A stretch of DNA of 32,095 bases, from the NCBI GenBank assembly GCA_036511855.1, contig DATCBN010000066.1, forward strand, positions 1 to 32,095, written 5' to 3'. The notes under the pieces were generated by a model. It searched no databases. It worked only from the letters and a program-made list of their open reading frames with translations, and was not told the origin of the DNA. The stretch comes from Candidatus Eremiobacteraceae bacterium (GTDB lineage: Bacteria > Vulcanimicrobiota > Vulcanimicrobiia > Eremiobacterales > Eremiobacteraceae). Below, piece by piece: positions 2,671 through 28,587 of this stretch. Made by a program: the position numbers and the translations under genes. How positions within the stretch are numbered: position 1 is the first letter of the stretch; the number at the start of each line of letters is the position of its first letter.

Positions 2671-2772
2671 CTGTAGGAGGGCAAGCTTCGCTTGCCCCGT
2701 TTTTTTCTAAACTAGTATTAGGGCAAGCATCGCTTGCCCTAAAATGGGTGAGCGTTGCTCACCCTCTTACAG
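2671..2772. repeat. composite palindromic repeat element
   Basis: Three 19-bp palindromes lie in about 100 bp: 2679-2697 (GGGCAAGCTTCGCTTGCCC), 2721-2739 (GGGCAAGCATCGCTTGCCC) and 2746-2764 (GGGTGAGCGTTGCTCACCC). The outer ends CTGTAGGAGGG (2671-2681) and CCCTCTTACAG (2762-2772) are inverted copies matching at 10 of 11 positions, so the whole block looks like one unit. It fills the gap between the convergent GH125 and adenosyltransferase genes. Confidence 0.85.
2679..2706 (+). terminator. probable intrinsic terminator after the GH125 gene
   Basis: The first palindrome of the repeat block forms an 8-bp stem GGGCAAGC/GCTTGCCC with a three-base loop, followed two bases later by seven T residues (2700-2706). 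It begins ten bases after the GH125 stop codon, the geometry of a rho-independent terminator. Confidence 0.6.
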
Positions 2773-3381: not shown

Positions 3382-3804
3382 TCACGCGATGCGGCCTTCG
3401 GCGACATCGAGAAGATCGACCCACCCAGTGACGCGGCCCTGAACATTTGCGGGCAACTTCGCGACCCGTTCTTTAAAACGAGCGCGATCGGCATCGTCAT
3501 CGCCGTCGTTGAGAAAAATCGTCGCAAATTGTTTTGTTTCGGCGGGCGTCTTCGGCGCATGGGACTCAAGCCAGTGCGACATAGCCGCGTCGTCGGGCGA
3601 CTCGCGGACGCCCTCGAGAAACACGCCCGGCGTCAAGCCGAGAAACTCGAGCAGCGTCATGTCGAATCCGCTCTTATCGCCGTACAAATATTCGCCGAGC
3701 GTGTCGGAAAGCGCAGCGCGTGCTTTGTCGATGGTGCGCGGCAGCATAGGAATTCCCAGCAGCGTCTCTCTGGGGCTTCGCGGAAAATCTCGTGTGAGGT
3801 CCAT
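3382..3804 (-). CDS. DUF5069 domain protein, copy B
   Basis: A 140-residue soluble protein of the DUF5069 family, function unknown. The family hallmark is the N-terminal MDLTRDFPRSPRETLLGIPM followed by LPRTIDKARA (residues 21-30). Next come an aromatic/Gly segment GEYLYGDKSGFD and a helix pair ending in VTGWVDLLDVAEGRI. The ATG at 3804 directly abuts the stop codon of the upstream paralogue, with no bases between, so translation is probably coupled. The two proteins share the N-terminal block almost exactly and the C-terminal WVDLLD/WLDWID end, but diverge in the middle. DUF5069 proteins are, from memory, often near metabolic genes without a known role. Confidence 0.88.
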   Translation of the reverse strand: MDLTRDFPRSPRETLLGIPMLPRTIDKARAALSDTLGEYLYGDKSGFDMTLLEFLGLTPGVFLEGVRESPDDAAMSHWLESHAPKTPAETKQFATIFLNDGDDDADRARFKERVAKLPANVQGRVTGWVDLLDVAEGRIA

Positions 3805-4236
3805 TTATTTTATCCGTCCTTCGTCAAAATCGATCCAATCGAGCCAGGTTGTGATTTTGTTGCGCACCGCAGCAGGCGCTTTGGCGGCCACATGTTCTTT
3901 GAGTTCAACGCGGTCTTCATCGGACTCGAGTCCAAATGCTTCGAGCGACTCGATCAATTCTTTGTCATCGCGTGCGTCGACCGTGCGCGCATTGGCATGC
4001 AGCCATTTCATGACGGCAGCGTCGTCGGGCGATTGCCGGATACCGTCGAGAAACGACTCAGCGTCGATGCCGAGAGTGTCGAAAAGCGCGCGGTCGTATC
4101 CGCTGTCGTCGCCGAAGCGATATTCACCGAGCTTGCCGACGAGGAACGCGCGCGCCTTATCGATGGTGCGCGGCAGCATAGGAATGCCGTCGAGACGATC
4201 TCGCGGACTGCGGGGAAACGAGTTGGTGAGATCCAT
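3805..4236 (-). CDS. DUF5069 domain protein, copy A
   Basis: A 143-residue paralogue of the next gene downstream, starting MDLTNSFPRSPRDRLDGIPM then LPRTIDKARA. The central GEYRFGDDSGYDRALFDTLG segment corresponds to GEYLYGDKSGFDMTLLEFLG in the other copy, and QSPDDAAVMKWL to ESPDDAAMSHWL, so the pair arose by tandem duplication. There is no signal peptide or membrane segment. A GGAG-type ribosome site lies just before the ATG on the minus strand (GAGGAGCCGC). It heads a three-gene run with copy B and the cobalamin adenosyltransferase. Function is unknown. Confidence 0.88.
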   Translation of the reverse strand: MDLTNSFPRSPRDRLDGIPMLPRTIDKARAFLVGKLGEYRFGDDSGYDRALFDTLGIDAESFLDGIRQSPDDAAVMKWLHANARTVDARDDKELIESLEAFGLESDEDRVELKEHVAAKAPAAVRNKITTWLDWIDFDEGRIK

Positions 4237-4257: not shown

Positions 4258-4315
4258 GTAGGAGGGTGAGCAACGCTCACCCATTTTTTGGGCAAGCGAT
4301 GCTTGCCCTACTACG
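4258..4315. repeat. paired palindromic repeat unit (inverted orientation)
   Basis: Two 19-bp palindromes, GGGTGAGCAACGCTCACCC (4264-4282) and GGGCAAGCGATGCTTGCCC (4290-4308), are separated by ATTTTTT. The ends GTAGGAGGG and CCCTACTAC are imperfect inverted copies. It is the reverse orientation of the unit at 21809-21867. It lies between kbl and the DUF5069 genes; the T-run could help end transcription. Confidence 0.85.
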
Positions 4316-10319: not shown

Positions 10320-10566
10320 CTGAACGGTGGGTAGCTGGATTGGAATCTACGTGTGCGCCTGCGGGGAACGTGAAATAGGTTGCACGCGCGCATGTTGGCG
10401 ATGTAACGATGTAACATCGCGTCCTGAAAATAGGCGAAGAGTGGGCAAGCATTGCTTGCCCTAGTACGGACCTTGCCCTCCAAGTCTAGAGCGCCAACCA
10501 TATGACTCGTGCTCTGTCACGGCAGAGGCCACTCGTGCGTCATAGAAAGAGCAAGGGAGACTGTCC
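10320..10566. other. gap with one palindromic repeat
   Basis: I see no convincing gene in this stretch. It contains one 19-bp palindrome, GGGCAAGCATTGCTTGCCC (10443-10461), followed by the TAGTACGG right end typical of the paired repeat units; the partner palindrome and the left end are missing. The promoter of the 46-aa membrane protein gene must also lie in the last 100 bases. Confidence 0.5.
10443..10469. repeat. partial palindromic repeat unit
   Basis: A single GGGCAAGC/GCTTGCCC palindrome with one terminal segment (CTAGTACGG), apparently half of the 59-bp element seen at 21809 and 26245. Confidence 0.75.
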
Positions 10567-21808: not shown

Positions 21809-21879
21809 CGTACTAGGGCAAGCATCGCTTGCCCAAAAAATGGGTGAGCGATGCTCACCCTAGTACGGGTTGCTCACCC
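21809..21879. repeat. paired palindromic repeat unit plus fragment
   Basis: The unit at 21809-21867 has perfect inverted ends CGTACTAGGG/CCCTAGTACG, and between them GGGCAAGCATCGCTTGCCC (21816-21834), AAAAAAT, and GGGTGAGCGATGCTCACCC (21842-21860). A truncated piece, GGGTTGCTCACCC (21867-21879), follows directly. It lies downstream of the methyltransferase gene. Confidence 0.88.
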
Positions 21880-21903
21880 TCCTACCGGAATGACGGGGCA
21901 AGC

Positions 21904-21928
21904 GGGGCCAACCATAAAAGTCGGCCCC
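21904..21928. repeat. second short inverted repeat (GGGGCC/GGCCCC)
   Basis: GGGGCC (21904-21909) and GGCCCC (21923-21928) flank an AT-richer 13-base loop holding CATAAAA. It sits right after the paired palindrome unit, upstream of the glycosyltransferase gene. Unrelated in sequence to the GGGCAAGC family; it may be another dispersed repeat or a transcript hairpin. Confidence 0.5.
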
Positions 21929-21976
21929 TACACGCAGCACAGGGGAATCAAAACGCGGGACAGAACATAGTAGTAC

Positions 21977-26202: not shown

Positions 26203-26229
26203 CGAAGTTCCGATGTACGAGGGCAATCC

Positions 26230-26303
26230 GTATTAGGGCAAGCCGTACTAGGGCAAGCATCGCTTGCCCCCAAAAAATGGGCAAGCGATGCTTGCCCTAG
26301 TAC
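26230..26303. repeat. paired palindromic repeat unit with nested partial copy
   Basis: The unit 26245-26303 has perfect inverted ends GTACTAGGG/CCCTAGTAC and contains GGGCAAGCATCGCTTGCCC (26251-26269) and GGGCAAGCGATGCTTGCCC (26279-26297), so both halves are of the GGGCAAGC type. Directly upstream a partial left end, GTATTAGGGCAAGC (26230-26243), abuts it, as if one copy had entered another. It lies between the rpiR-like and ppx genes. Confidence 0.87.
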
Positions 26304-27237: not shown

Positions 27238-27354
27238 TCACACTATAACCTAGCGGAGCTTTGGCCGGCGGGAAGAATGCTCGATAGGAGACGAATTTCA
27301 CGTCAAGCGCCCGCGAGCGCGCGTCGACGGCGCAGAAATAGAAGGAGAGCACAT

Positions 27355-28587
27355 ATGGTATTTAAGCTTTCCGGTATTGCATTATTGGCCGCGCTGTCTT
27401 GCGGGGTACTCACGCAAGGCGCAGATGCTGCGTCGTTAAACGCCCCATTGCGACTCGACGGCGCGAGTCCTAAGGGCCCGCTCATCGGCGACTCGTCGGG
27501 TGCGCTCTACGGCACGACACAAACCGGCGGCGGATCCGAATGGGGAACGGTATTCAAGCTTACGCCGAACGGCAGCGGCTACCGGGAGAGCGTGCTGTAT
27601 CAATTCAAAGGCAAACCGGACGGCGGCGATCCTATGGCCGGCCTCCTCGGCAATAACGCAGGTGCGCTATTCGGCACGACCTGGGTTGGCGGCACAGCCG
27701 ATAGGGGCTCGGTCTTCAAACTAACGCCGAATGGGACCGGCTATAGCGAGAAAGTGTTGTATAGTTTCCAAGGCGGTTCCGACGGCGGCTCGCCGCAATG
27801 CACACTCATCGAAGATGCTCATGGCGGACTTTACGGCACCGCGAGCGGCGGTGGAGATATCGGCCAAGGAGTCGTCTTCAAATTGACTCGGAACGGCAAC
27901 GCTTATCTAGAAAGCGTGCTGTACAGCTTTCAGGGCGGCGCCGACGGAGCCGGTCCGTCATCGCTCTTAGCAGACTCGAGCGGCGCACTTTATGCCACGA
28001 CTTCGGGCGGCGGCGCATTCGGAAAAGGTATAGTTTTCAAACTCACGCCGAATGGCAATCAATACAGTGAATCGATATTGTTCAATTTCGACGGCCGCTC
28101 AGGCGGAGGTGAGCCCAGCGCCTCACTCAGTGCCGATGCCGCAGGCGCGCTCTACGGCACGGCTGTGAATGGCGGAGACCCATTCTGCGCGCAAGCCGGC
28201 TGCGGCTCTGTGTTCAAGCTCAGCCCATCCGGCGGCGGCTACAACGCGAGCGTACTCCACACGTTTGGAGGCGGGTCCGACGGCAAGTGGCCATTCGCCG
28301 CGGTGATCGTCGACAGCTCAGGGTCGGTGTACGGCACAACGCGGGGAGGCGACGCAGTTCCGGGAACTGTTTTCAAGCTGACGCCGAACGGCAACGATTA
28401 TAGCTACCACGTCATCCATCGCTTCACAGGTCGAGATTTCCCCTATGCGGCGGTCATCGAAGACGGCCTAGGCGCGCTGTATGGAACCACGGTTTACGGC
28501 GGCACCTACGGGATTGGAAGCGTCTACAAGCTGACACCGCATGGAGTCAAGTACGGCGAGCGGATCCTCCACAGCTTCCATCCCTAA
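27355..28587 (+). CDS. exported GloVer-repeat protein (seven tandem repeats)
   Basis: A 410-residue exported protein. The ATG at 27355 has GAAGGAGAG (27341-27349) just upstream; longer readings lack it. The first 25 residues (MVFKLSGIALLAALSCGVLT then QGADA) are a signal peptide. The rest is seven repeats of about 50 residues, each with L-(Y/F)-GT(T/A)..GG ... G-(T/S)-VFKLTPNG ... Y-x-E-x-(V/I)-L-(Y/H)-(S/H)-F. The pattern is that of the GloVer tandem-repeat family, named for the conserved GxxxxVFKL-type strands. Seven 50-residue all-beta repeats would fit a seven-bladed propeller. Function is unknown; such proteins may bind carbohydrate or other surface ligands. No anchor domain is seen at the C-terminus. 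Its end overlaps the convergent doxX-like gene by four bases. Confidence 0.9.
   Translation: MVFKLSGIALLAALSCGVLTQGADAASLNAPLRLDGASPKGPLIGDSSGALYGTTQTGGGSEWGTVFKLTPNGSGYRESVLYQFKGKPDGGDPMAGLLGNNAGALFGTTWVGGTADRGSVFKLTPNGTGYSEKVLYSFQGGSDGGSPQCTLIEDAHGGLYGTASGGGDIGQGVVFKLTRNGNAYLESVLYSFQGGADGAGPSSLLADSSGALYATTSGGGAFGKGIVFKLTPNGNQYSESILFNFDGRSGGGEPSASLSADAAGALYGTAVNGGDPFCAQAGCGSVFKLSPSGGGYNASVLHTFGGGSDGKWPFAAVIVDSSGSVYGTTRGGDAVPGTVFKLTPNGNDYSYHVIHRFTGRDFPYAAVIEDGLGALYGTTVYGGTYGIGSVYKLTPHGVKYGERILHSFHP

Follow-up and report, generated by a model that had tools for sequence, protein, structure and literature searches.

Inverted pairs of tagged palindromes in a Candidatus Eremiobacteraceae genome form a REPIN/BIME family very probably spread by a RAYT encoded elsewhere in the genome

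What kind of element lies at positions 21809–21867 of contig C66, and how did it come to occupy this and other intergenic sites? The contig, analyzed as one stretch of 32,095 nucleotides (hereafter the window), belongs to a 3.07-Mb genome of Candidatus Eremiobacteraceae in 112 contigs. The initial annotation described a 59-bp element family with inverted ends, two internal palindromes and an A6/T6 spacer, present at 2671, 4258, 10443, 21809 and 26245. Every one of these copies was found. The window contains ten perfect GGGYRAGC-N3-GCTYRCCC palindromes at five places (starting at 2679, 2721, 2746, 4264, 4290, 10443, 21816, 21842, 26251, and 26279), and none occurred in 100 dinucleotide-preserving shuffles of the window. 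The paired, inverted layout was described correctly, but the repeating unit is a polar 25-nt REP, composed of a 6-nt tag, an 8-bp stem and a 3-nt loop. The tag consensus, GTA[C/G][T/G]A, is conserved on one side of the palindrome only.

The element at 21809–21867 resolves into two head-to-head REPs with outward tags and an A6/T6 spacer. The left half of this REPIN (21810–21834, plus strand; tag GTACTA) has the stem GGGCAAGC, the right half (21842–21866, minus strand; tag GTACTA) the stem GGGTGAGC. The same plan is seen in the pairs at 4258–4314 and 26245–26303, the latter a perfectly symmetrical REPIN of two GTACTA-tagged halves (26245–26269, plus strand; 26279–26303, minus strand). This last pair spans 59 bp, the pairs at 4258–4314 and 21810–21866 57 bp each. 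The cluster at 2671–2772 consists of three REPs, a single one (2673–2697, plus strand; tag GTAGGA, stem GGGCAAGC, loop TTC) and an outward-tag pair (left half 2715–2739, plus strand, tag GTATTA; right half 2746–2770, minus strand, tag GTAAGA, stem GGGTGAGC). A solitary REP with tag GTACTA and loop AAT lies at 10443–10467 on the minus strand. Two places carry a further component, a collapsed half-REP that precedes a REP as a leader: GTAGGAGGGTGAGCAACCC (21867–21885, minus strand) adjoins the REP at 21842 directly at its GTAC tag, and two such leaders in tandem, GTACGAGGGCAATCC and GTATTAGGGCAAGCC (26215–26244, plus strand), stand before the REP at 26245. Folded as single-stranded DNA, the 57 nt at 21810–21866 reach −23.4 kcal/mol (z −10.4), and the window pairs in general are far more stable than their shuffles (z −10 to −13). 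A single long hairpin is formed by each of the pairs at 21810 and 26245, and two hairpins by that at 4258. A search of the window against Rfam gave no match.

The initial annotation proposed a genome-wide count, and this gave 392 exact GGGCAAGC palindromes and 539 tagged REPs in the whole 3.07 Mb. In a 1.76-Mb sample, 437 REPs were found at ≤5 mismatches of 25, compared with no REP match in the reversed sequence of the same sample. Stem positions 4–5 are paired in 409 of the 437, where 230 would be expected if the arms were independent, and in nearly all copies these bases are CA/TG, TG/CA or CG/CG. The remark on conserved pairing is supported by these counts; selection on structure, to which it had been attributed, is a plausible but unproven cause, as the copying of a few subfamilies could yield much of it. 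Neighboring REPs in the sample form 100 outward-tag, 10 inward-tag and 124 direct tandem pairs. The A6/T6 spacer is common without being constant, stem gaps of 7 and 4 nt being the most frequent in the genome sample. One single-orientation tandem array with a 42-bp period was observed at 124410–124770 of contig C4 (G000:C4:124410-124770); the 45 nt upstream of it are identical to the start of contig C6, so that the array probably broke the assembly.

These units agree with the description of a REP as an extragenic, high-copy palindrome of 20–40 nt, and their doublets with that of a REPIN or BIME, in which two inverted REPs form a larger hairpin. Bertels' prediction that paired copies are better conserved than singlets did not hold at significance: mean mismatches were 0.85 for paired and 1.11 for single REPs, a difference in the expected direction (p = 0.22).

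As the initial annotation stated, the window has no REP-associated (Y1) transposase. A Pfam Y1_Tnp search of the genome identified two such genes, on contigs C109 and C4, both outside the window. The C109 gene encodes a protein of 177 aa with an intact reading frame, which passes the cut-off of 80 bits of NF047646, the NCBIfam model for RAYTs, with a score of 95.5. It has both an HUH motif (HVH at residues 91–93) and a catalytic tyrosine (residue 149 or 150, in YYITQNP) that is aligned and conserved across the family. The C4 copy, 66–71% identical to C109, is frameshifted before the conserved tyrosine, which is out of frame; this may reflect decay or an assembly error. A comparison with solved structures gave weak matches only, to IS200/IS605 transposases (2xm3, E 0.016). 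The relatives recovered by scanning contigs with the RAYT were all distant, with identities no higher than 44%, and the closest RAYT outside this genome in a class-wide search of 117 genomes was 42% identical. Both genes are flanked on either side by REPs of the window family, inverted and with outward-facing tags. C4 has three such REPs upstream and two downstream; C109 has two degenerate REPs upstream and, downstream, two with the tag GTAGGA. A RAYT unit is defined by this bracketing of the gene with inverted REPs (Nunvar et al., 2010, PMC2817692), and, as in a RAYT-REP (REPtron) system, the RAYT gene shares its genome with the REP family that flanks it.

The resemblance to REP/BIME that was noted from the window was thus to the right kind of element. 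The element is very probably a REPIN/BIME, two inverted 25-nt REPs of a family of approximately 540 copies, spread by a cognate RAYT encoded elsewhere in the genome. Behind this reading stand the observed copy number, architecture, RAYT bracketing, lineage-specific gains and an abundance that tracks the resident RAYT; for single-strand cleavage, strand transfer and a copying step we infer the course of events from published RAYT biochemistry. The RAYT, a Y1 HUH single-strand transposase, would recognize the tag and hairpin when these are single-stranded, for instance on the lagging-strand template. Cleavage beside two inverted REPs would release or copy the pair, which would then be joined at a new site, mostly intergenic and downstream of stop codons.

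Among 61 genomes searched, the window family occurs, beyond stray copies, only in the two congeners G001 (36 copies) and G002 (49 copies), where nearly all are solitary and GTAG-tagged. Each congener has one RAYT, 41% (G001) and 33% (G002) identical to that of C109, and each RAYT is bracketed by a hairpin of its own, GGCGGACC-TTTAT-GGTCCGCC in G001 and a GGGCCGA(G/C)-TTTAT type in G002. The G001-type hairpin is present in 139 copies in G001, 7 in G002 and none in the genome studied here. Other genera of the family again have a RAYT with its own bracketing hairpin. REP abundance in these genomes thus tracks the resident RAYT, the RAYTs of the congeners being non-cognate to the window family. 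In E. coli strains with and without the RAYT, REP abundance likewise follows the RAYT (PMC8049555).

A second tagged hairpin, GTAGGGGCCGAC...GTCGGCCCC with a loop near TTTAT, has 38 perfect copies of the searched pattern in this genome and at most one in each congener; the window copy, GTAGGGGCCGAC-TTTTATG-GTTGGCCCC, lies at 21904–21931 on the minus strand. No RAYT bracketed by this hairpin was found in the genome, which makes it an apparent orphan family. The stem is similar to that of the hairpin around the RAYT of G002.

Three window sites, 2671–2772, 4258–4314 and 26245–26303, were compared with their orthologous positions; around 10443 and 21809, no relative has sequence that is syntenic on either flank of the element together. 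The cluster at 2671–2772 is absent from G001 and G002, and that at 26245–26303 from G001 and from G004, a member of another genus, in all cases with the neighboring genes in place. At 4258–4314 the right-hand REP (4290–4314, minus strand; stem GGGCAAGC) has the tag GTAGTA, which is of the congener type; it is shared with G002 and persists as a degenerate relic in G001. The left-hand REP (4258–4282, plus strand; tag GTAGGA, stem GGGTGAGC) is absent from both congeners, exists only in this genome and was gained in this lineage. This site represents a step from an old solitary REP to a pair. According to the initial annotation, orthologous positions in all relatives with no gains or losses would argue against mobility; with two clusters empty in relatives and one REP gained at the third site, mobility survives that comparison. 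The relatives are only 70–80% identical, so insertion boundaries and target sites are imprecise, and no target-site duplication was evident at the compared sites. There are no tRNA sites within the window that might serve as REP targets.

The gaps orthologous to the C109 and C4 RAYT loci hold no RAYT in G001 and G002, and some of them hold REPs of these genomes' own families. At the G001 site orthologous to the C109 RAYT (G001:C58:203500-204400, about 230–750), an unrelated ORF of ~400 nt is bracketed by two inverted GGCGGACC REPs of G001 and may be cargo caught between REPs.

The family shows a strong bias in gene context. Gene calls were approximate and made with a purpose-made model, which yielded 912 genes and 90% coding sequence in a 0.98-Mb sample. 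Despite this density, 201 of the 217 REPs in the sample fall outside called genes, and 7 of the 16 inside them fall within one weak ORF; the window copies are all intergenic, as had been claimed. The 97 convergent gaps contain 84 REPs, the 423 co-directional gaps 91 and the 114 divergent gaps 10. Two further features of the window genes were observed in passing. The ORF at 27277–28587 contains tandem protein repeats of 159–162 bp at 27481–28430, and the adjacent minus-strand ORFs 3382–3804 and 3805–4236 share ~71% DNA identity at an offset of 432 bp, a tandem gene duplication (3382–4236) that is found in the syntenic stretch of the congeners as well.

A preference for gene ends and convergent gaps could also be expected of bidirectional terminators, or of stabilizers of mRNA 3' ends, that were amplified or kept by selection and not by transposition. 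In co-directional gaps 66 of 88 REPs are closer to the upstream stop codon, and some hairpins are followed by T-runs. The orientation of these T-runs in co-directional gaps is balanced, however (17 in the sense of transcription, 16 against it), and therefore gives no sign that termination causes the gene-end bias, of which promoter avoidance is a simpler reading. Nor does a terminator function explain the outward-tag pairing, the bracketing of RAYT genes, the restriction to one genus or the way in which one congener's family gives way to another's. We consider this origin very unlikely, although REPs may take on a side role once inserted.

Still less probable is that these are MITEs moved by a DDE transposase, as the label "tiny MITE" in the initial annotation would imply. 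The elements are short, non-coding and intergenic, have inverted ends and occur in both orientations, but the label is inapt, as their ends consist of REP tags instead of DDE-transposon terminal repeats. Each half is a complete tagged hairpin that is also found alone or in direct tandem, the same units bracket both Y1 transposase genes, and a target-site duplication is not evident, within the imprecision of the boundaries at 70–80% identity. Elsewhere among bacteria, REPs are binding sites for gyrase, IHF and Pol I, yet we give next to no credence to an origin as architectural protein-binding sites or a host regulatory motif that was never mobile, as two of the three compared window sites are lineage-specific gains and copy number varies more than tenfold within one genus.

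Taken as a RAYT-associated REP/REPIN family, the element can be placed among known systems. With the GTAG-tagged REP superfamily (Nunvar et al., 2010, PMC2817692; Di Nocera et al., 2013, PMC3733652) it shares a short perfect hairpin tagged at one end by unpaired bases, an intergenic distribution of hundreds of copies with few in divergent gaps, and a RAYT between two inverted REPs. It departs from the GT(A/G)G head of that literature in that ~60% of the tags are GTAC: GTA is conserved, and the unpaired GTAG is found in a minority class and in the congeners, but not in the GTAC majority. As in REPINs (Bertels and Rainey, 2011, PMC3116915; PMC8049555), inverted doublets fold into one hairpin and copies are fewer in genomes without the cognate RAYT; unlike in REPINs, tandems in direct orientation equal inverted pairs in frequency, and collapsed half-REPs stand in front of many of the REPs tagged GTAC. 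The 8-bp perfect stem and 3-nt loop are those of the Stenotrophomonas maltophilia REP, the 2 nt between tag and stem those of the Marinomonas REP, and the Y1 HUH protein is common to their TnpA-REP/REPtron group 3 (Corneloup et al., 2021, PMC8266576); in these two systems GTAC is a mutant, whereas here it is the natural majority tag. Enterobacterial BIMEs are likewise mosaics in which REPs alternate in orientation and spacers vary, but they differ in sequence and have a bulged stem and Y/Z1/Z2 units. The family is, then, a known kind of mobile DNA, in which the GTAC majority and the leaders are uncommon.

Of the 437 sampled REPs, 263 have a GTAC, 131 a GTAG and 20 a GTAT tag. Natural tags in PMC3733652, PMC2817692 and PMC8266576 are GTAG or GTGG, and GTAC is a laboratory mutant only; the string GTAC is absent from PMC3733652 and PMC2817692. 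The published mutants show that the fourth base of the tag helps to choose the cleavage site: the S. maltophilia RAYT bound the GTAC substrate without cleaving it, and with the Marinomonas RAYT cleavage shifted from CT/CA to GA/GT (PMC8266576). The tags beside the RAYT-bracketing hairpins of relatives (loci L048, L049, L050, L058 and L060) are of the GTAG, GTGG, GAAG and GGGA(G) types, so that tag drift extends beyond the genome studied here.

The two main tag classes also differ in what precedes them. A collapsed half-REP of the GTAGGAGGGCAACC or GTACTAGGGTGAGCAACCC type, sometimes repeated, stands directly before 106 of 261 GTAC REPs and 3 of 130 GTAG REPs (odds ratio 29, p 6e-19, a value that overstates independence, as the REP copies are related). 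The dinucleotide CT directly before the tag is found in 29% of the GTAG class and 17% of the GTAC class, and in the flank of the GTAC class neither GT nor GA is conspicuous at any one position (best 19% at −14). The strongest difference between the classes, GG at −8 (37% vs. 1%), is due to the half-REP leaders. The plainest idea for the origin of the leaders is that replication slippage deleted the apex of REPs lying in tandem; a bolder one is that cleavage was redirected to the GT with which a neighboring tag begins. The latter touches on a possibility that we regard as rather doubtful, namely that the change from GTAG, as in the congeners, to the GTAC majority was a natural guide switch that would have moved cleavage from CT to GT or GA. 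As every REP tag begins with GT, GTAC elements would then tend to cut and join beside REPs, and such joining would fit the frequency of half-REP leaders in front of the GTAC class (106/261, against 3/130 for GTAG).

This genus offers a natural experiment: three of its genomes differ in the RAYT they carry and in the REP family that goes with it, and the REP families studied are abundant only alongside their own RAYT. The unusual tag may alter where the element cuts. In vitro, the change to GTAC abolishes cleavage by one RAYT and redirects that of another, and the presence of GTAC as the majority tag, set beside the published fourth-base mutants, makes this family a test case in nature for the model in which the tag acts as guide.
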